Shown in pieces: positions 53,014 to 63,255 of a DNA stretch of 64,000 nt. Source of the stretch: Chaetoceros tenuissimus (taxonomy: Eukaryota; Bacillariophyta; Thalassiosirophyceae; Chaetocerotales; Chaetocerotaceae); the NCBI GenBank assembly GCA_021927905.1, contig BLLK01000019.1, forward strand, positions 1,240,001 through 1,304,000, read 5' to 3'. The first letter of the stretch is position 1. Every line of letters starts with the position of its first letter. The notes under the pieces were generated by a model, which saw only the letters and a list, made by a program, of their open reading frames with translations, was not told the DNA's origin and ran no database searches. The position numbers and the translations under genes are program-made.

Positions 53014-53786
53014 CTAGTGCAATACGCCCATCATGTCAAGAATATATTGTTTCATAATCTTTTTCTCCTCAATATCAGTATATGGATTTGTATCAATGTA
53101 TTGTAGTGGTGTTACCCCGATGTGATTCTTTTTCTTCAAAGACCGGCGACCTTGTCGTTTCACAATTGCATGGATGATTTCCTCAAGCGGATTGAAGGAA
53201 GAGCATGCTCGATGAAGTGCAAACTCTTCAGCTTCATTGATGTCTTTGATCCATTCATCATTATTCACTTCATTATTGAAATGAATATTCACTTTCTTCA
53301 ATGCCGTTCTAGCAATGACATTATTTCCAAGCTCAGTGTGTTGAGGAACATTAAAGATGATCAACTTTTCGCAAGAGTGAAATGCTTCTTCATCAATCTC
53401 TCTACAGGATGGCGGAATGTAAATTGATGTCAGAGACTTGCACAACCTGAATGCCATGTATCCGATGTATTCGAGATCTGTTGAAAGTCGAACAAATTCA
53501 AGACTATGGCAACACTCGAAAGCATAATCTTCTATTCTTCGAAATGTATCGGCCATGATGACCTTCTTGACGTTCTTACAATCACAGAAAGTAACTCTAG
53601 GAATGACTTCTACCCCTGGTAATACGATGATGACCTCCCATGTTTGTCTCTCCTCCCATTCGTAGATACGAAACTCTCCATTCCAACATCAAATATAACC
53701 TCTCCGTTATAAAAATAGGTTTTCTTGCCTTGATACATTCGAATTCCCGGTACGAACCGCTGCCACTCCTCCGTCTGAACCCTCAT
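53014..53786 (-). pseudogene. LRR_5 array copy 4, one frameshift
   Basis: The frame begins MRVQTEEWQRFVPGIRMYQG and continues to NGEVIFD, then stops making sense. Around 53680-53695 the family sequence moves to another frame, where EWEERQTWEVIIVLPGVEVI follows. From there all repeats are intact (MADTFRRIEDYAFECCHSLE, VRLSTDLEYIGYMAFRLCKS) down to YILDMMGVLH. One small indel therefore separates the N-terminal block from an otherwise good gene. The part from 53556 could still be translated from its own Met. Confidence 0.7.
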
Positions 53787-54330
53787 CTCGTAAATACTGA
53801 TGCACTACTTAAATGAGCTCAATAGTGAAAGCTGTTGATAAATATTATGTCTTGGAAAGTGAAACAGGAAACATTTTGGTGCCTCTGTTTGCCCGTTTGC
53901 CCGTTTTATTCCACATTCTCGTATTACCGTTATTCTTATAACTGTATCCCATTTCCTCATAAATCGAAAAAAACTTGAACAATCATAAACTCGATTGTCT
54001 GACATACTGTACCTTGAAACTCTCAGAACTCTAATTTTATTATCATTTCATATTTATTACCCCCTTTCAAGTTCACCGTATCAATTTAACAAGCACCAAG
54101 GAGGAATAAATGAGGCATCATGACTGATTTCATTCAGATAGTAGTACATAATGTATCGTTCATTGCTTACGTTAGCAATATGAATAATCCATTGACTAGT
54201 GTTTCAATGTTCTATGAAAAATATTTTTACCTCTTATCAGATTCCCTCTATTAAAAATTTGTTCAAAAAAAGGTACGGATGCAGGAAACAAAATGTGGTT
54301 GCAATAACAATTCTTGAAAACTTTCCTTAG
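53787..54330. other. Spacer upstream of copy 4
   Basis: About 540 bases. It contains one copy of the shared LRR upstream block (53931-53989). Otherwise no gene or repeat was recognised. Confidence 0.35.
53931..53989 (-). promoter_or_regulatory. Conserved LRR upstream block, copy 1
   Basis: On the plus strand it reads ATTACCGTTATTCTTATAAC, then ATTTCCTCATAAATC and an A-run with TTGAAC. Related blocks stand at 56625-56680 and 59037-59096. Each is about 100-150 bases upstream of a start codon of the array. ACCGTTA contains a Myb-type CNGTTA core. Conservation between diverged flanks suggests a promoter element (inference). Confidence 0.5.
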
Positions 54331-55134
54331 TTAAATTTCCCCCATCATGTCTAGCACATAGCGGTTGATAAGCTTTTGTTCCTTGATTTCAGAATGTGGG
54401 TTTTCCTCAAGATATTGTAATGGCGTGACTCCAATTCTATTAGGTCGGTGTAACGAGCTCAGACCTTGTCGTTTCACAATTGCATGGATGGTATCTTCAA
54501 GAGGAGTGAAAGATGAACATGCACAATGAAGTGCAAATTCTTCTTCGTTTGTACCATTAACATTTTTTATCCAATGACGTAAATCCTCTGCTTCATTTGT
54601 GTTTTGCAAGTGCCCCGCATTATTAGTCTCAAATGGAGATTCCTCAATCAATTTAGTATCTGTAATCACCTTTCCACCAAGACGAGCGTGACGAGGAACA
54701 CTCAAGATGATCAACTTTTTGCAACCTACAAATGCCTGGTGGCAAATCTCTTGACAGGACGGAGGGATGAAGATGGAAGTGAAGGCGCAGTTGAAGAATG
54801 CACCATTTACAATTTGTTCAAGATTTCTTGAGAGCTTGACAAAAGCAAGTTCCCAGCAATTAAAGAAACAGCGATTTCCAAGTATTCGTACGGAATCAGC
54901 CATGATGACTCGCTTGAGACCACTACACCACTCGAAAGTATGAAAAGGGATGACTTCTACACCAGGTAATACTATAATAACTTCCCAAGACCATCTCTCT
55001 CTTTGGTCATAAATAAGAAACTGTCCAGTATTTTCATCAAATAGTACCTCTCCGTTGTAAAAGAGGGTTTTCTTGCCTTTGTACATTCGCACTCCAGGGA
55101 TGAACCTCTGCCATTCTTCTGTTTGAACTCTCAT
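54331..55134 (-). CDS. LRR_5 protein, array copy 5
   Basis: A 267-residue complete copy starting MRVQTEEWQRFIPGVRMYKG. Its repeats (VIMADSVRILGNRCFFNCWE, VKLSRNLEQIVNGAFFNCAF) and the longer variable loop (SPFETNNAGHLQNTNEAEDL) are closest to copy 9 at 59546. Their upstream regions also match (CAGGTTGAACTATCAG, then ACACGACATGACT at 55237-55269 and 60427-60458). Copies 5 and 9 are thus a more recent duplicate pair that includes the promoter. A Cys replaces the usual Arg in HCACSSF of the C-terminal block. Confidence 0.8.
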   Translation of the reverse strand: MRVQTEEWQRFIPGVRMYKGKKTLFYNGEVLFDENTGQFLIYDQRERWSWEVIIVLPGVEVIPFHTFEWCSGLKRVIMADSVRILGNRCFFNCWELAFVKLSRNLEQIVNGAFFNCAFTSIFIPPSCQEICHQAFVGCKKLIILSVPRHARLGGKVITDTKLIEESPFETNNAGHLQNTNEAEDLRHWIKNVNGTNEEEFALHCACSSFTPLEDTIHAIVKRQGLSSLHRPNRIGVTPLQYLEENPHSEIKEQKLINRYVLDMMGEI

Positions 55135-55382
55135 CTTTCCTATTCAGATGCACAGAATATTATAATGAGTTTGATCTGTCGCTGTAATTCATGTTCTATT
55201 CGATATGTATGTTTGCAGTAGTTTGATTCATTTTGACAGGTTGAACTATCAGAATAACACGACATGACTGAAAAACGTGACTTGACGACGTGACTCGCTC
55301 GAGAAAGAATATGAAAGCTGCCATTGACAAACAATATACTCTCTATTTTCAACATCCCAAAGTTTCTAGTCAACTTGCCAAA

Positions 55383-55412
55383 GCGCTGTCATTCTTCCGT
55401 CTGAAGTCTCAT
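55383..55412 (-). pseudogene. LRR_5 N-terminal relic
   Basis: Reading on the minus strand from the ATG at 55412 gives MRLQTEE, a stop, then QR, the family's opening codons with one nonsense change. Flanking sequence up to about 55560 resembles the upstream region of copy 7 (57750-57905), including a GATGCAG...GACACGAT stretch. No repeats follow. It is a leftover start and promoter of a lost copy. Confidence 0.6.
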
Positions 55413-55662
55413 TTGCTCGAAATGTATTATAAATATAGATCTGTCGCTCTTCTATTCTCGTTCCTGCCTGAATGTTTGGCATGATGCAGGTAGACAGACT
55501 GATCTAAGTATAGTATCATCTCTAGCTCGACACGATATGCATGACGACTCCTTTGGACTAATATATTGCTTTTGGAAGAGCATGAAGTAGCAGTTAAATG
55601 TATAAAAGAAATCATTTCGAATTGAAATATAAGATACATCATTTAGATAGTTCAAGTAAGAT

Positions 55663-56520
55663 TTATAAAATGAAAAGTAGATTTTCATCAACGGCTTCGC
55701 CCATCATGTCTAGCACATATCGGTTAATAATCTTTCTCTCTTCAATGTCAGAATATGGATTTTCCTGAAGGTACTGCGATGCAGTAACTCCGATGCTATT
55801 TTGTTTTTTCAACGAGCTGATGCCTTGTCGTTTCACTATTTCATAAATGATTTCTTCCAGCGGGTTGAATGATGAACAGGCACGATGAAGTGCAAACTGT
55901 TCACCTTGGTTGATATTTTTGATCCATTGAATCAATTCATTCCTAATCTGCTGATTCCTACGGAAATCAGTGGGAATCAGCAGATTAGGAACGAAGTGAA
56001 TTATTCTATCTGCAAATGGGGATGCTTTGAACAATGCCGTAAAACCAATAACACCATGTCCAATTTCAGTACCCTGAGGAACATGAAAGATTATCAACGA
56101 TTGACAATTATCAAATGCATCAATATCAATCTCTCGACAGGACGGAGGAACAAATATTGAAGTCAGAGAAGAGCAATGGCAGAATGCACCCATTCCAATA
56201 TATTCAAGGCTTGTTGATAGTCGAACATATGAGAGACTCTCGCAACCAAAGAAAGCACCTCTCTCAATTCTCCTGACTGTATCTGCCATAATGACAATCT
56301 TGAGTTTCTTCAAGTGAGGGAAAGTATCTTGAGGGATGATTTCGACTCCGGGCAATACGATAATGACTTCCCACGATAGCTGCTCTTCCTGATTGTAGAC
56401 AAGATGCTCTCCAGTCTCAGAATCATAAAGTTTCTCTCCATTATAAAAGAGAGTCTTCTTTCCTTTGTACATCCGTACTCCAGGAATGAAACGCCGCCAT
56501 TCTTCCGTCTGAACCCTCAT
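55663..56520 (-). CDS. LRR_5 protein, array copy 6, with an inverted repeat in the coding region
   Basis: Start set at MRVQTEEWRRFIPGVRMYKG, nine codons inside the open frame, to match the paralogues; 285 residues. Repeats include IVIMADTVRRIERGAFFGCE, VRLSTSLEYIGMGAFCHCSS and IFVPPSCREIDIDAFDNCQS. Its variable loop (VPNLLIPTDFRRNQQIRNE) is encoded by a perfect 19-bp inverted repeat at 55940-55958 and 55973-55991, absent from the other copies, which kept the frame. The C-terminal block is intact, with a short extra tail after MMGEAV. Confidence 0.8.
   Translation of the reverse strand: MRVQTEEWRRFIPGVRMYKGKKTLFYNGEKLYDSETGEHLVYNQEEQLSWEVIIVLPGVEIIPQDTFPHLKKLKIVIMADTVRRIERGAFFGCESLSYVRLSTSLEYIGMGAFCHCSSLTSIFVPPSCREIDIDAFDNCQSLIIFHVPQGTEIGHGVIGFTALFKASPFADRIIHFVPNLLIPTDFRRNQQIRNELIQWIKNINQGEQFALHRACSSFNPLEEIIYEIVKRQGISSLKKQNSIGVTASQYLQENPYSDIEERKIINRYVLDMMGEAVDENLLFIL
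55940..55991. repeat. Perfect 19-bp inverted repeat inside LRR copy 6
   Basis: TTCCTAATCTGCTGATTCC at 55940-55958 and its exact reverse complement at 55973-55991 are separated by 14 bases. It adds codons to the variable loop without breaking the frame. Confidence 0.9.
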
Positions 56521-56544
56521 GCTTGATGAAGCTGTAATATTCAA

Positions 56545-56974
56545 ATGTCTACTAGAGTGAAATGATGAAAGCTCTGAGTATTGAAAAAATAGTTCTTCCT
56601 TGCTCTTCCTTGCTCTTCCTTAGTTGTTACCGTTATAACCGCTTACTATTTCCTCACAAACCAAAAATTACTCGAACGTAAATTTAAAATGAGGCTACGA
56701 TAAAGTGCATTCAGGTTAGAGACTAAAGAGTATTCAAGTAAAGGAATCATTTTTTGAAGAGAACAGCTTAATCATGTGCTTCAGGCAGAAAGGAAGGTGA
56801 GAAGAATCTCTATGATACAGAGCAAGCCATGCGTACTGAATAAGAACATCATGTCAAAAGATACTAGGCTCGACTTGTATATGTTTTAGTAACATTGCAT
56901 GCATTTACTATGTAATATTATTACTTGCTATATTCTAGGCTTAAACTAGATGTTTTGATAGATATGATTCAAGG
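56545..56974. other. Spacer upstream of copy 6
   Basis: About 430 bases. It contains a short CTTCCTTGCT triplication (56593-56623) and the second conserved upstream block. No gene was seen. Confidence 0.4.
56625..56680 (-). promoter_or_regulatory. Conserved LRR upstream block, copy 2
   Basis: GTTACCGTTATAACC, then ATTTCCTCACAAACCAAAAA and CTCGAACG. It is nearly identical over 50 bases to 59037-59096 and lies about 105 bases from the ATG of copy 6. Similarity to the other block continues for another 90 bases away from the gene. Confidence 0.55.
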
Positions 56975-57764
56975 TTAGAGAGCAATCTCGCCCATCATCT
57001 CTAGTACAAAATGATTAATGATCTTTTGCTCTGTCACCTCAGCGTAAGGGTTTGCCTCGAGGTATTGCGATGGCGTGATTCCAATACTATTTTTTCTTTT
57101 GAAAATATCTAAATCTCCTTCTCTTTGTACAATTCTAGAAATGCTTTCCTCGATTGGATTAAAAGAGCAACAAGCACGATGAAGTGCATATTGCTCGTCA
57201 TTGTTGATGTTTTTAAGCCAGTCATTTACTTGGTTGCTGATATCTCTTGCAAAATTAATTTCAACTGGAGTTACATAGAAAGGAGATGCATAGTACAACG
57301 CTGTATGTAAAATCACGGTTTCTCCGAGCTGAGTGTGTTGAGGAACACTAAAGATAATCAACTTTTTACAGCCATTAAATGCATCCCCACCAATCTCTGT
57401 ACAGGATGGTGGAATAAAGATGGAAGTTAAAGATCTGCAGTTTACAAATGCGGAGCTTTCAATTTTATCAAGATCTTTCGAAAGCTTGACATATGCAAGC
57501 TTTTTGCAAAACGAGAAAGCCAAGCTTTCAATTCTTCGTACAGAATCACTCATAATCAATAGCTCAACATTCTTACAACTAAAGAAAGTTTGGGTAGGAA
57601 TGATTTCAACTCCAGGTAAAACAATTATTACTTCCCAAGTGTCTCTCTCTTTTTTATCATGAATAAGATACTCTCCGGTATTATCATCGGATAGAATTTC
57701 TCCTTTGTAAAAGTATGTTCTCTTCCCTAATGAATCTCCGCCATTCTTCTGTCTGTACTCTCAT
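56975..57764 (-). pseudogene. LRR_5 array copy 7, small deletion near the start
   Basis: The start MRVQTEEWRRFI (ATG at 57764) is present. About 20 bases coding for PGVRMYK are then missing, throwing the frame off. The family sequence continues in another frame (GKRTYFYKGEILSDD, then ERDTWEVIIVLPGVEIIP). The rest is intact: LIMSDSVRRIESLAFSFCKK, IFIPPSCTEIGGDAFNGCKK and the C-terminal block with FVLEMMGEIAL. The fragment from 57559 alone could be translated as 194 residues. Confidence 0.7.
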
Positions 57765-58071
57765 TTGCACAAAGTGTTTTTTATAAATAATTATTGATTT
57801 CTTTATTCTCATTCCTGACTGAATTTGAGTTGCATTATATGCAGATGATGCAGATGGACAGAGATCTATGGTATCAGCTGGCTTGACACGATACGACATG
57901 ACTACAGGTATGGACTGATAATTTTTAAGGTATTTACTCTTTATTCCTATGAAGTAGGTACTCAGCGGCCAAGGATGACAATGTAAATGCTTTCTGAAGA
58001 GGCAAAGGAACTGCTGACGATTTGGGCGTTTCAGTAGAGACAAAGTCCAGATGTAAAAATGGAAATTAGAT
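57765..58071. other. Spacer upstream of copy 7
   Basis: About 305 bases, partly similar to 55413-55560 (GATGCAG...GACACGAT...CGACATGAC). This is the decayed shared upstream region of two copies. Confidence 0.4.
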
Positions 58072-58899
58072 TTACACTACAATTTCCCCCATCATATCAA
58101 GAACGTAACGATTCACAATCTTTTTCTCTTCAATTTCAGCAAATGGGTTTTCCTGAAGATATTGCATCGGTGTGATCCCGATGCCATTAGGTTTCTTCAT
58201 CGAACTGATGCCTTGATGTTTTACCAATTCATAAATGATTTCCTCCAATGGATTGAATGAAGAGAAAGCTCGATGAAGAGCAAATTCTTCAGCGTGGTTG
58301 ATATTTTTTAGCCATTCCTTCACCTCATTGTTTATATTGCTATATTCAGGATGATCCTCGTGCCCATAAGCTAAGCCTCTATCTGCAAAAGGAGATGCTT
58401 CCAACAATGCCGTTTCTTCAATCATACCATCTCCGAGTTGAGTGTGTTGAGGAACATGAAAGATAATCAGCCTTTCACACATTTGAAATGCATATCTAAC
58501 AATCTCTCGACAGGATGGCGGAATAAAGATTGAAGTCAAATCACAGCAGCAAGCAAATGCACAAAGCCCAATGTACTCGAGATTTGTCGATAGCTTGACA
58601 AAGACAAGACGTGTGCAATCCATGAAAGCCTTTTCTTCAATTCTCTTGACAGTATCAGCCATGATGACTCTCTCGACATTCATGCAGGCACAGAAATTCC
58701 AAGTAGGAATCACTTCGACTCCAGGCAATATGATGATGACTTCCCATGAGCCTCTCTCTTCATGATCATAGATTAGAGGACGGCCAGCATGAAAATCTCC
58801 TTCCCATAGTTTCTCTCCGTTCCAAAAGAGAGTTTTCTTTCCTTTGTACATCCGTACACCGGGAATGAAGCGTCGCCATTCTTCCGTCTGAACCCTCAT
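58072..58899 (-). CDS. LRR_5 protein, array copy 8
   Basis: A 275-residue complete copy starting MRVQTEEWRRFIPGVRMYKG. Repeats include VIMADTVKRIEEKAFMDCTR, VKLSTNLEYIGLCAFACCCD and IFIPPSCREIVRYAFQMCER. The variable loop (YGHEDHPEYSNINNEVKEWL) is of the same type as in copy 10 (YEYEDQPEYQNITNEVNEWL), so these two are sister copies. In the C-terminal block HRACSSF reads HRAFSSF and KRQG reads KHQG. Confidence 0.8.
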   Translation of the reverse strand: MRVQTEEWRRFIPGVRMYKGKKTLFWNGEKLWEGDFHAGRPLIYDHEERGSWEVIIILPGVEVIPTWNFCACMNVERVIMADTVKRIEEKAFMDCTRLVFVKLSTNLEYIGLCAFACCCDLTSIFIPPSCREIVRYAFQMCERLIIFHVPQHTQLGDGMIEETALLEASPFADRGLAYGHEDHPEYSNINNEVKEWLKNINHAEEFALHRAFSSFNPLEEIIYELVKHQGISSMKKPNGIGITPMQYLQENPFAEIEEKKIVNRYVLDMMGEIVV

Positions 58900-59308
58900 C
58901 TTGTTGAAACTGTACTACTCAAAATGAAAATAGAGTGAAATAGAGATACTAGAAGCTCTTGGCTGAAGCAGTTTGCTTGATTAGAATTTGATTTCGCTGC
59001 TTTTCTCCACTTTCCACTCTCCCTTTTCTTTTCACTAATTACCGTTATAATAACTGCTTTATATTTCCTCACAAACCAAAAATTAACTCGAACGTGAATT
59101 GAAAGTAAGGCAACGCCAAAGTGTATTCAGGTTCGAGACTATGTGGCTTTCAGGCAAGGGAATTGTTTTTAAATAGAAACGCTTATTCGTGTGCTCATGG
59201 CAGCCATTTATCGAAAGGTACTACTAGACTCGAAATTAGGCAGCATGTAGTCAAAAAAATATGTAAGCTTATTTGTTACTGGTATAATCAATATCGAGAT
59301 GGAAATAT
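58900..59308. other. Spacer upstream of copy 8
   Basis: About 410 bases containing the third conserved upstream block and flanking similarity to 56680-56760. No gene was seen. Confidence 0.4.
59037..59096 (-). promoter_or_regulatory. Conserved LRR upstream block, copy 3
   Basis: AATTACCGTTATAATAACTG, then ATTTCCTCACAAACCAAAAA and CTCGAACG. It lies about 140 bases upstream of the ATG of copy 8. Confidence 0.55.
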
Positions 59309-59430
59309 TTAAAGGGCAAAGCCCATGATGTCAAGAACAAAACGATTGATACATTATCTTTTGCTCCTCAACCTCGGCAAACGGATTTGCTTCGAGCGAG
59401 GTATTGCGATGGCTTGATTCCATTGAAAGA
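59309..59430 (-). pseudogene. LRR_5 C-terminal relic
   Basis: Read on the minus strand, pieces of the family's last 40 residues appear in different frames: GIKPSQYL, EANPFAEVEEQKI and DIMGFAL with a stop. A six-base duplication (GAGCGA) and small indels break it. Nothing of the repeats remains upstream of it. Confidence 0.65.
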
Positions 59431-59545
59431 AAGACACGGGCATTTATTTTTAGCTAGCCAACAATGAAGCATTATAAAATATGACAATCACAATCATAAT
59501 TAAACTTTTAAAATTACAAACTGTGGTATACTATAGAAGTAAAGT

Positions 59546-60349
59546 TCAGAAAACGATTTCCCCCATCATATCAAGAATATATTGATTGATAATCTTTTGT
59601 TCTTTGATCTCAGTATTCGGATTTTCCTTGAGGTATTGTGATGGTGTTATTCCAATACTATTAGGTTTATCAAAAGAGTTCAGACCTTGTCGTTTTACAA
59701 TTGCATGAATGGTATCTTCAAGAGGAGTGAAAAATAAACAAGCACGATGTAGTGCGTATTCTTCTTCGTCTCTACCATTAATATTCTTTATCCACTGATC
59801 TGCTTCCTGCCTCAAATATGGGTAGTGCTCCGAATACAGAGTCTCAAATGGAGATGCTTCCAACAATTTGGTACGTGTGATCACATTCACACCAAGACGA
59901 GTGTGTTGAGGAACACTCAAGATGATCAACTTATAGCAACCTTGAAATGCCTGGGGACCAACCGCATGACAGGTTGGAGGAATGAAAATTGAAGTTAAGG
60001 CGCAGTTATAGAAGGCACCGTCAACGATGCATTCGAGATTTCTTGAGAGCTTGACAAAAACAAGTCTACTGCAACCTTGGAAACAGCGATTTCCAAGTAT
60101 TCGTACGGAATCAGCCATAATGACTCGATTTAGACTACTACACCACTCAAAATTATGAAAAGGAATGACTTCCACACCAGGTAATACTATAATAACTTCC
60201 CAAGTTTCTCTCTCTTTCCTATCGTAAATAAGATACTGTCCAATATTTTCATCAAAGAGTGCCTCTCCGTTGTAGAAAAGAGTTTTCTTGCCTTTGTACA
60301 TTCGCACTCCAGGGATGAACCTCTGCCATTCTTCTGTTTGAACTCTCAT
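59546..60349 (-). CDS. LRR_5 protein, array copy 9
   Basis: A 267-residue complete copy, sister of copy 5: MRVQTEEWQRFIPGVRMYKG, VIMADSVRILGNRCFQGCSR and IFIPPTCHAVGPQAFQGCYK. The C-terminal block differs at HRACLFFTPLEDTIHAIVKR and ends ILDMMGEIVF. The upstream region shares CAGGTTGAACTATCAG and the ACGACATGACT run with copy 5. Confidence 0.8.
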   Translation of the reverse strand: MRVQTEEWQRFIPGVRMYKGKKTLFYNGEALFDENIGQYLIYDRKERETWEVIIVLPGVEVIPFHNFEWCSSLNRVIMADSVRILGNRCFQGCSRLVFVKLSRNLECIVDGAFYNCALTSIFIPPTCHAVGPQAFQGCYKLIILSVPQHTRLGVNVITRTKLLEASPFETLYSEHYPYLRQEADQWIKNINGRDEEEYALHRACLFFTPLEDTIHAIVKRQGLNSFDKPNSIGITPSQYLKENPNTEIKEQKIINQYILDMMGEIVF

Positions 60350-61425
60350 CTTGCTTCTTATTCAGATGCATGTTATATTATTATGAGCTTTATTCTCCGC
60401 CTATATTTCTTTTCCCTTAAATATTGCAGGTTGAACTATCAGCCAAACACGACATGACTCAAGAACGTGACTCGACGATGTGACTCAAGAACAAATATGG
60501 ATCATCTCGAATATATCATTTTGTTTACGAATGCTTCATTGTGCAAAGAATTATGTTGTAGAGAATGATTGTATATATAATAGAGAATGTAAAGTATAAA
60601 AGAAATCGTTTAGTTTAGATCCAATCAGATGCATAGATTTACATCACGTTTTCGCCCATCATATCAAGGACGTAACGATTGACAATCTTTCTCTCTTCAA
60701 TTTCAGCATATGGGTTTTCCTGAAGGTATTGCGATGGTGTGATACCGATGCTATTAGGTTTCTTGAACGAGCTAATGCCTTGGCGTTTCACAATTTCGTA
60801 AATGATATCTTCTAGCGGGTTGAATGAAGAACAAGCTCGATGAAGAGCAAAATCGTCAGAGTTGTGGATATTTTTTAGCCATTCATTCACTTCATTAGTA
60901 ATATTCTGATATTCAGGTTGATCCTCGTACTCGTAGGTCCATGTATTGGCAATTGGAGATTCTCTGATCAATGCCGTTTCTGCAATCACCTTTGCACCAA
61001 GACGAGTGTGTTGAGGAACATGAAGGATTATTAACTTTTCACAACCACGAAATGCATTATGGCTTATCTCTAGACAGGATTGCGGAATAAATATTGAAGT
61101 CAATTCAAAGCAGCACACGAATGCATCTCTTCCAATGTACTCGAGATTTGCCGAGAGCTTGACGAAATGGAGAAAATTGGCGTGCAAGAAAGCTCCTTCT
61201 TCAATTCTCTTGACTGTATCGGCCATGATGACAGTCTTGATTTTATCACAGTCACTGAAAGTAAATTCAGGAATGATCTCAACTCCGGGAAGAACCATGA
61301 CTACTTCCCATGTTCGTCTCTCTTCCCAATCATGAATGAGAGTCTCTCCGTCATGATATGCTCCTTCATGAAGTTTTTCACCGTTGTAAAAGAGAGTCTT
61401 TTTGCCTTTGTACATTCGTATTCCA

Positions 61426-62026
61426 GGAATACACCAATGGCCTAGGAATTCGGGTTTGTAGAAGAGCTGGTATGATTTGTGTAGAAATTGAACGTAAAGG
61501 TCATTTTAGGCCATTTTTGAAAATTTTGTCCTTCATGTATTTATTTAGCTCGTATACCGTCTAGTATGTGCCTACGCTCCAAAAGAGATTATCCGGTAAA
61601 TGCCTAGGAATCAAAAATTTCACCGACAGGGGTGATTCCCAGGGCGATTCCTAAAATTTAGGAATCGCCTCTATAGCCAATCGAAATATACGGCTATAGA
61701 GGGTGATTCCTAGGAACCACCCTCTATAGCCGTATATTTCGAACAGATAGCCGTATATTTTTTCACAAAATCATATATTTTGAGTTAATTAGAGTAAAAT
61801 TTGTATTTTTGATATATGACCTCGTTTACATTTATATTTTTCTAGGGTCTGTTTCCATTGGTGTATTCCCGCGGAAAACCTCTCGGTATGTGTGGCCAGG
61901 AATTTCTCTCGTTGCACTCGAGAAATTCCTTCGGGAATCCAAGAAATCCCGCTCGTTTCACTCGGGGGATTTCTTGTCGATTCCCGGGGTCCGCCACACA
62001 TACCTCGAGTATTTCCTTTAAGAATA
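61426..62026. mobile_element. Hairpin-rich repeat, copy A, inserted in an LRR gene
   Basis: These 601 bases are repeated at 62312-62912 with, by eye, a single difference (C at 61752, T at 62638). It starts at GGAATACACCAATGGCCTAG, has a body of about 430 bases with strong palindromes, and ends with a unit of about 160 bases rich in hairpins (61866-62026). The left end unit seen in copy B is missing here. The ends show AATA on both sides of the disrupted gene, consistent with a short target duplication. It has no coding capacity. Confidence 0.75.
61683..61740. repeat. 58-base palindrome (23-bp perfect stem) in copy A
   Basis: GAAATATACGGCTATAGAGG plus GTG pairs exactly with CAC plus CCTCTATAGCCGTATATTTC. 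The 12-base centre is itself the palindrome TTCCTAGGAA with one flanking base each side. A neighbouring near-perfect palindrome (GGCGATTCCTAAA/ATTTAGGAATCGCC) lies about 25 bases upstream. Confidence 0.9.
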
Positions 62027-62156
62027 AACCTCCGCCACTCTTCCGTCTGAACCCTCATTTTGTGAAGACTGTTGCACTACTCCTTGAAAGAGAGAAGCTC
62101 TTGATTGGAGGTATGTGTAAGCCTTAGCTAACTACTATGTATTCTGTTGTGTGCTG

Positions 62157-62912
62157 TTCTTAGAGGAAATACTCGAGGTGTGTGTGGCGGACCCCGGGAA
62201 TCGACAAGAAATCCCCCGAGTGAAACGAGGGGGATTTCTTGGATTCCCGAAGGAATTTCTCGAGTGAAACGAGAGAAATTCCTGGCCACACACACCGAGA
62301 GGTTTTCCGAGGGAATACACCAATGGCCTAGGAATTCGGGTTTGTAGAAGAGCTGGTATGATTTGTGTAGAAATTGAACGTAAAGGTCATTTTAGGCCAT
62401 TTTTGAAAATTTTGTCCTTCATGTATTTATTTAGCTCGTATACCGTCTAGTATGTGCCTACGCTCCAAAAGAGATTATCCGGTAAATGCCTAGGAATCAA
62501 AAATTTCACCGACAGGGGTGATTCCCAGGGCGATTCCTAAAATTTAGGAATCGCCTCTATAGCCAATCGAAATATACGGCTATAGAGGGTGATTCCTAGG
62601 AACCACCCTCTATAGCCGTATATTTCGAACAGATAGCTGTATATTTTTTCACAAAATCATATATTTTGAGTTAATTAGAGTAAAATTTGTATTTTTGATA
62701 TATGACCTCGTTTACATTTATATTTTTCTAGGGTCTGTTTCCATTGGTGTATTCCCGCGGAAAACCTCTCGGTATGTGTGGCCAGGAATTTCTCTCGTTG
62801 CACTCGAGAAATTCCTTCGGGAATCCAAGAAATCCCGCTCGTTTCACTCGGGGGATTTCTTGTCGATTCCCGGGGTCCGCCACACATACCTCGAGTATTT
62901 CCTTTAAGAATA
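62157..62912. mobile_element. Hairpin-rich repeat, copy B, with both end units
   Basis: A left unit of about 160 bases (62157-62316, opening TTCTTAGAGGAAATACTCGA), the body (62317-62750) and an inverted right unit (62752-62912) form a composite with long inverted ends. Each end unit holds two hairpins with the same loop, GAGTGAAACGAG: GAAATCCCC against GGGGATTTC, and GGAATTTCTC against GAGAAATTCC. Each unit's own two ends are also inverted imperfect matches (GGTATGTGTGGC), so the units may be small elements in their own right. Several open frames across it are only translations of the repeats. Confidence 0.75.
62569..62626. repeat. 58-base palindrome in copy B
   Basis: Same 23-bp perfect stem as at 61683-61740. 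Confidence 0.9.
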
Positions 62913-62979
62913 CACCAATGGAAACAGTGAGGTTAGTAATTTTTAGCATAATTAAATATAACTTCTATATTAAGCAAGG

Positions 62980-63255
62980 ATGGAAAGTGACAGTAGCAGC
63001 CATTTATTTGATCTAAATGATTCGCTTGCTAATTCCTCATCGTCTGAAGATGAAGATGATTCAGATATTGAGAATGGATCTCATATTGAACAGGATGATG
63101 ATGATCTCAGTGGCAGTTTTATTCGTCAGAAAAAGCGCATTATCCATCTATACTTTTATTTTTCATTTGTTCTGCATACTTTACACATTGAATTGACTAC
63201 ATTACCCTATTTAGATAATGTTTCTTATAATAGCTCATATGAGCGATGCACTTGA
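62980..63255 (+). CDS. Short acidic protein frame, possible truncated gene
   Basis: The frame starts MESDSSSHLFDLNDSLANSS and has a Glu/Asp/Ser-rich run up to DDDDLSGSFIRQKKR, after which it turns hydrophobic and ends at 63255. Acidic N-termini of this sort open some transposase-associated proteins and many nuclear proteins, but nothing recognisable follows. It may be a first exon or a truncated relic next to the repeat. Confidence 0.3.
   Translation: MESDSSSHLFDLNDSLANSSSSEDEDDSDIENGSHIEQDDDDLSGSFIRQKKRIIHLYFYFSFVLHTLHIELTTLPYLDNVSYNSSYERCT

Follow-up and report, generated by a model that had tools for sequence, protein, structure and literature searches.

A low-copy mobile element without a gene of its own splits an LRR_5 gene in Chaetoceros tenuissimus and is probably Crypton-like

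The genome of the diatom Chaetoceros tenuissimus analysed here comprises 41.0 Mb in 68 contigs, and the window, that is, the whole stretch of DNA under study, covers 64,000 nucleotides of one of them (C13:1240001-1304000; positions without a contig name are those of the window). Here, I show that two nearly identical repeats in the window are copies, A and B, of a small, low-copy mobile DNA element that has no gene of its own, hereafter E; A splits a leucine-rich repeat (LRR) gene and B an older relative of E. Clean junctions, a GAATA rule at the target and a linked recombinase gene favour a mechanism in which a tyrosine recombinase integrates E from a circle, and E is probably a non-autonomous element of the tyrosine-recombinase (Crypton-like) family. 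A preliminary description of this DNA had left the element without a named family; a kind can now be proposed for it.

Copies and limits of the element

Two near-identical 601-bp copies, offset by 886 bases and with one difference, had been described, and they are recovered exactly: the repeats lie at 61426-62026 and 62312-62912 (886 from start to start), and their single mismatch is a C at 61752 and a T at 62638. The figure of 601 bp holds for the repeat but not for the mobile unit, which a comparison of the copies limits to 595 bp in A and B, GAATACACCAATGG...CTTTAA; the target supplies the G at 61426 and the GAATA that trails the unit (62022-62026). Copy A occupies 61427-62021 and copy B, with one substitution relative to A, 62313-62907, both on the plus strand; elsewhere E measures 593 bp (both C16 copies), 577 bp (C27), 532 bp (C29) and 530 bp (C21). 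On the same strand, its 5' part, the core (61427-61854 in A), starts with GAATACACCAATGGCC and is followed by an internal inverted CCATTGGTGTATTC (61855-61868); its 3' part, X, spans 61855-62021 in A and 62741-62907 in B and ends in CTTTAA. GAATACACC at one end of E is not complementary to CTTTAA at the other, hence there are no terminal inverted repeats, the inverted repeats being internal.

Genome searches, whose copy counts are lower bounds, found at least seven copies that represent six insertion events: A, B, two on C16 (one inside the other, in opposite orientation), C27, and C29/C21, whose common flanks make them one event. X-only and core-only relatives are also present. Such a genome-wide search had been set beforehand as the test of the claim that a recent non-coding mobile element interrupts a gene, and the further copies support this claim. 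The exact 14-mer GAATACACCAATGG occurs 16 times in the genome, each time within an E-family locus, while one-mismatch matches occur at 27 further places, one of them in the family (C29), with 4 for a reversed control pattern. Over ungapped columns, identity is 99.8% between A and B, 100% within the C16 pair, 99.5% between A and C16, 99.0% between A and C27, 88.9% between A and C29, and 88.7% between A and C21.

Junctions and target rule

Alignment of empty sites, which had been proposed along with the copy search, was carried out with paralogs, not alleles, and in four of the six events (A, B, C16 inner and C27) it gave clean joins without target duplication. At C27, where the interrupted sequence is apparently coding, the empty paralog reads CTCCGA-AGATACCATTGTC and the filled site CTCCGA-[GAATACACC...CTTTAA]-AGATACAATTGTC, nothing being lost or duplicated. 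Within the outer C16 copy, which as host supplies the empty site, CCATTGGTGTATTC and CCGCGG flank the inner copy with clean joins.

Copy A interrupts an LRR_5 gene on the minus strand, whose 3' part lies at 60639-61426 (PF13306, E-value 2.5e-18 on 60639-61415) and whose 5' part, MRVQTEEWRRFI, lies at 62022-62058. When the flanks of A are joined, a single open frame of 274 aa results (MRVQTEEWRRFIPGIRMYKG...), and five other LRR genes in the window run without a gap across the homologous site; a sixth (start at 57764) diverges after RRFI. A clean insertion would predict the empty allele CCAGGAATAAACC. While the splitting of the gene stands, its placement exactly between codons is one of several equivalent drawings: GAATA at both borders (61427-61431, the 5' end of A, and 62022-62026, the target, both on the plus strand) leaves six equivalent cut positions, and with the boundaries as left by C27, where two drawings only are available, the cut lies inside a Pro codon (C^CT). 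Likewise, the AATA seen earlier at both borders fits a GAATA junction repeat without target duplication better.

The pentamer to the right of the insertion is GAATA at A, B and the inner C16 copy, GAATC at the outer C16 copy, AGATA at C27 and AAATG at C29/C21; the older relative interrupted by B, Z, has GAACA. The junction pair is a perfect GAATA/GAATA in three of the six events, the same family site accounting for two of these, with four of five bases matching in one event and three of five in two. Over the four independent targets (A, C16 outer, C27 and C29), 15 of 20 positions agree with GAATA, whereas random draws average 5.7; of 200,000 draws from the window, 2 were as high (P about 1e-5), and the sum does not exceed 8 of 20 at 11 further offsets to the right and 12 to the left. 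GAATA was picked after the data had been viewed, yet it is the 5' pentamer of E itself. Right-hand pentamers resembling the element's own GAATA are as expected of tyrosine-recombinase elements such as Cryptons. At C29, AAAATGTTT / AAAATGTCT could be taken as a 7-9 bp duplication; it was given no weight because C27 shows none, and is a loose end.

A candidate recombinase nearby

An element with a divergent E-like 5' end (GAATACACCAATGGCCTGGAAATTCGGGT...) lies 10-12 kb to the right of the repeat pair, the E-like end (C13:1314936-1315310) being 12.4 kb from B; on the strand opposite to this end it carries a candidate recombinase gene (C13:1313020-1314930), an open frame of 668 aa without stops. 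The 5' end of E is 77% identical to that of the recombinase element over 130-140 bp (local score 129; the highest of 300 base shuffles reaches 32), and past the initial 135-140 bases the likeness is weaker though still above the shuffles (49 versus 30). A GATTCCT...AGGAATC hairpin and CTATAG motifs stand at corresponding places in both, and 223 of 360 aligned positions agree in a global alignment of the E 5' part with the recombinase element. Residues R221, H362, R365, H388 and Y397, assigned by eye, and matches to phrog integrase families (E-value 2.4e-6 with 422 aa, 7.3e-7 with its final 232 aa, and 8.2e-9 with the relative P0002) mark this related element, together with its E-like 5' end, as one with a putative R-H-R-Y tyrosine recombinase. 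A genome search with the recombinase's own sequence gave one match (24 candidates scored), and in the protein database, besides the gene's own entry, three relatives are present, the catalytic end being absent from two.

On the proposed mechanism, a recombinase would first close E into a circle by joining its ends, which would create the junction CTTTAA-GAATA-CACCAATGG; this circle would then recombine with the chromosome at a site of five bases similar to GAATA. The left end would thereby retain the GAATA of the element and the right end the pentamer of the target, as the junctions have it, and no target base would be lost or duplicated, in agreement with the paralogs. The likely enzyme is the product of the nearby gene, which shares the E 5' end through its element and may mobilise E. 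The internal inverted GAATACACCAATGG would serve as a second target, giving the nested composites seen in two of the six insertions, and new copies would appear beside or inside old ones, as in two sister pairs, possibly by re-integration of the circle into the sister chromatid.

Several observations weigh against this reading. The empty sites of C29/C21 and of the outer C16 copy were not found, all joined-flank matches in the genome being filled loci (4 of 4 and 2 of 2, respectively). The C27 and C29 pentamers match GAATA at three of five positions only, and of the three perfect cases two come from the same family site. In each of the three events whose pentamers are unequal, GAATA stands at the left, which also fits blunt insertion with a fixed 5' end. 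As to the enzyme, Pfam returned nothing at an E-value of 0.1 for the whole protein, and when the catalytic part was searched alone, DUF3504 had an E-value of 0.002 and Phage_integrase one of 0.024; neither reached the cut-off, and an unrelated family was listed alongside them at 0.14-0.18. The XerA match is at 0.029, and a genome search with Phage_integrase to an E-value of 10 gave nine other places, the candidate gene not among them. A single-sequence search of PDB found no match at an E-value of 1, and among the 56 matches of a profile search, mostly casein kinases (noise), an integron integrase ranks 23rd at 0.66. The structure model, built from four sequences, has a mean pLDDT of 37 and is unusable. 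Last, no X was recovered from the recombinase element, the other end of which was not located, X being seen only on E and on Z remnants; the recombinase element may be a cousin of E rather than its driver.

DUF3504 is Crypton-derived according to the parts of PMC3212892 available here. A genome search with it gave no candidates, although no control genome matched either, so that it is uninformative. Viral contigs gave five pattern matches, none of them a relative of the recombinase, and none for a 30-base pattern of the 5' end. A guess by eye that placed the recombinase element's right end near L072 5665 was not used. Separately, nine tyrosine-recombinase-like stretches below the Pfam cut-off lie on C21, C17, C44, C54 and C57, seven in frames of 401 aa and several with identical scores; they are perhaps a second, multi-copy recombinase element.

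Comparison with known elements

In the parts of PMC3212892 available here, Cryptons are described as lacking terminal inverted repeats, many having terminal direct repeats of 4-6 bp, as having non-autonomous derivatives and mostly very low copy numbers, and as being present in a diatom. Like E, CryptonI-1N1_RPro and CryptonA-1N1/1N2_OL have no gene, are related to a tyrosine-recombinase element and lack terminal inverted repeats; however, in CryptonI-1N1_RPro each end shows 98% identity to that of its partner, whereas E is matched at the 5' end only and at 77%, and the former is without terminal repeats, whereas E has the GAATA junction repeat and is full of hairpins (PMC3212892, same parts). 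The CryptonS elements of oomycetes and of Phaeodactylum tricornutum share with E a stramenopile host and have terminal direct repeats of 5 or 6 bp, to which the GAATA junction repeat of E may correspond, but most have TATGG termini, and since E has GAATA it is not filed as CryptonS (PMC3212892, same parts). Among the records listed in literature searches on Cryptons, diatoms and Chaetoceros none names E (subscription journals mostly outside their scope, Repbase not covered), and the word Crypton is absent from the main text of PMC8613185.

Unequal pentamers have a parallel in the bacterial integrative elements Tn916 and CTnDOT, whose coupling sequences are unequal and in which the overlap bases of element and target end up at opposite ends. 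On the circle model the overlap bases of E would behave alike, but Tn916 and CTnDOT are bacterial, large and conjugative.

Alternative explanations and nested copies

A rolling-circle or single-strand (HUH) element, of Helitron, Helentron or IS605 type, would use a Rep or Y1 enzyme and insert without duplication beside a short target, and this is the strongest competitor of a Crypton-like origin, although an improbable one. The absence of target duplication, the strong single-strand folding of E and an invariant 5' end that has the target on the same side each time all fit it, and nine of ten Helitron-like matches in the genome are over cut-off, two sets having identical scores. Helitrons insert between A and T and have 5' TC and 3' CTRR ends. 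An A^T cut can be drawn at four of the six events (A, B and both C16 copies), but at C27 and C29 no drawing cuts between A and T, and the terminal pair 5' TC with 3' CTRR is met in none of the six, in any drawing and on either strand. No Y1 transposase in the genome is over cut-off, the one sub-threshold frame having 61 aa and a stop. The nearest Helitron-like stretch on an E-bearing contig is about 400 kb off, on C27, which says little because such enzymes act at a distance. As for an IS607-like serine recombinase, no resolvase match was found in the genome at an E-value of 0.1, while 10 of 14 control genomes matched.

In their own right, the nine Helitron-like stretches over cut-off (C3, C27, C32, C33, C34, C38, C48 and C54), five in frames of 473 aa and three in frames of 534 aa with identical scores, look like recent Helitrons.

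The movement of E looks local and self-targeting, for two of six insertions hit the same internal site of a family member and sister copies adjoin twice. A and B have two common substitutions (alignment columns 162 and 300) absent from every other copy, one further substitution being private to B, and the C16 pair is identical, which suggests re-insertion nearby, although gene conversion between neighbours would leave much the same pattern. A stronger version, in which templated repair or gene conversion made A (or B) from its neighbour, a break in the LRR gene being filled by copying B through GAATA microhomology, draws on these two substitutions, on the 886-bp distance and on the GAATA at both borders. 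It has little chance, in view of the same two ends and the same clean junctions at the unlinked C27, C29/C21 and C16 sites.

Next to B, an extra inverted end unit (62160-62312) had been ascribed to this copy, and this does not hold. The unit belongs to Z, of which 62160-62312 and 62908-63123 are the two halves interrupted by B. The former, on the minus strand, is an X 96% identical to that of A and B, with the outer end CTCTAA followed by GAACA on that strand; the latter, on the plus strand, opens with the GAATA of the target (62908-62912), the start of GAATACACCAATGGAAACAG. An uninterrupted relative, GAGG-GAATACACCAATGGAAACAGTGAGG, lies at C13:486588-486928 with related downstream DNA (83%), and Z runs into the start of a frame (MESDSSSHLFDLN...) that is 54% identical over 48 aa to a second Z.

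B together with 62160-62312, and the C16 copy, look like an inverted X followed by core and X, with arms 96% (B) and 100% (C16) complementary, and could be taken as full-length copies of a 756-bp foldback transposon with inverted ends of 170 bp, moved by a DDE transposase and resembling a terminal inverted repeat (TIR) or miniature inverted-repeat transposable element (MITE), A being truncated. This is hard to sustain: A, C27, C29 and C21 all begin at the same GAATA without the inverted X, for which truncation gives no explanation, both composite copies are followed by GAATACACCAATGGAAACAG and hence lie inside another X end, and the site of B has its uninterrupted relative. Nor do the empty-site paralogs at C27 and A show the target duplication by which a MITE or TIR element is recognised. 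The 756-bp appearance is instead due to two insertions having hit the same kind of site, inverted X-GAATACACCAATGGAAACAG, of which the genome has about nine (the 14-mer list plus the one-mismatch C29 site); two of six insertions at so few sites points to self-targeting.

Other repeats adjoin these loci. The outer C16 copy contains a TIR element of 645 bp, GACCCGTTCTGTCA...TGACAGAACGGGTC, with a TAA target duplication (L074 4814-5458; C16:1553313-1553957), which is presumably PIF/Harbinger-like, judging by the 3-bp duplication, and a piece of its relative adjoins X at C13:486.9 kb (L014). An acidic frame rich in serine (MESDSSS...) starts alike in the window at 62980-63123 and in L070 5589-5720; it is linked to an X end and may be part of a lost enzyme of Z. 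Tried as a recombinase N-terminus, the Z fragment gave no blastp match to P0003. An imperfect near-palindrome, CACACATACGAGTACCTCGAGTACTCGTATGTGTG, stands at about L070 5921-5955, where the X end of the second Z is altered. From about 63121, where the likeness of the Z copies stops, to 63305, the window is 72-75% similar to seven other places (C43, C14 and C58, two each, and C13) and is another repeat family.

The hairpin-rich character ascribed to E is borne out by folding: copy A reaches a folding energy of -115.2 kcal/mol as single-stranded DNA, compared with -56.8 (standard deviation 4.8) for shuffles, none of 100 being as good. The core contains a palindrome (61643-61669) and a hairpin (61681-61742) and forms an arm closed by GAATACACCAATGG/CCATTGGTGTATTC, while the X arm consists of two hairpins (61898-61930 and 61942-61974) within one outer stem (61873-61896 / 61993-62016). 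An Rfam search gave five matches, all microRNA models far under gathering scores, which are read as generic hairpins.

Integron attC cassettes also combine hairpin-forming sites, a tyrosine recombinase and a loose target rule. Hairpins and loose target are alike in E, whereas a single-strand substrate is hypothetical for it. E might accordingly be imagined as a eukaryotic counterpart of this folded-strand substrate, its recombinase recognising two hairpin arms, not a double-stranded site, at a loose purine-rich RR^RRAT target. Such a reading would account for E being so extremely rich in hairpins, for those at the recombinase element's end and for the tolerated unequal pentamers, yet it is a long shot.

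An assembly artefact duplicating one copy, suggested by the single base that differs between A and B, is most implausible because their flanks differ on all four sides and they have separate empty-site relatives, besides the substitution private to B.

Conclusions

The gene broken by A belongs to an array of LRR_5 genes in the window, where 53786-62058 holds seven MRV.TEE-type starts on the minus strand. For C. tenuissimus, with 41 Mb per haploid assembly, the parts of PMC8613185 available here describe an orthogroup of 385 paralogs, 376 of them with the LRR5 domain; in a species with such an orthogroup, copy A has recently broken one LRR_5 gene.

To sum up, Crypton boundaries are hard to define because there are neither terminal inverted repeats nor long direct repeats (PMC3212892, same parts). 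In the case of E, young copies and empty-site relatives fix both ends and the junction rule almost to the base, and the set of copies shows self-targeted nesting and local spread and provides a candidate enzyme 10-12 kb away. With fixed ends, a junction rule and a nearby candidate enzyme, the circle model would be testable in a culturable diatom.
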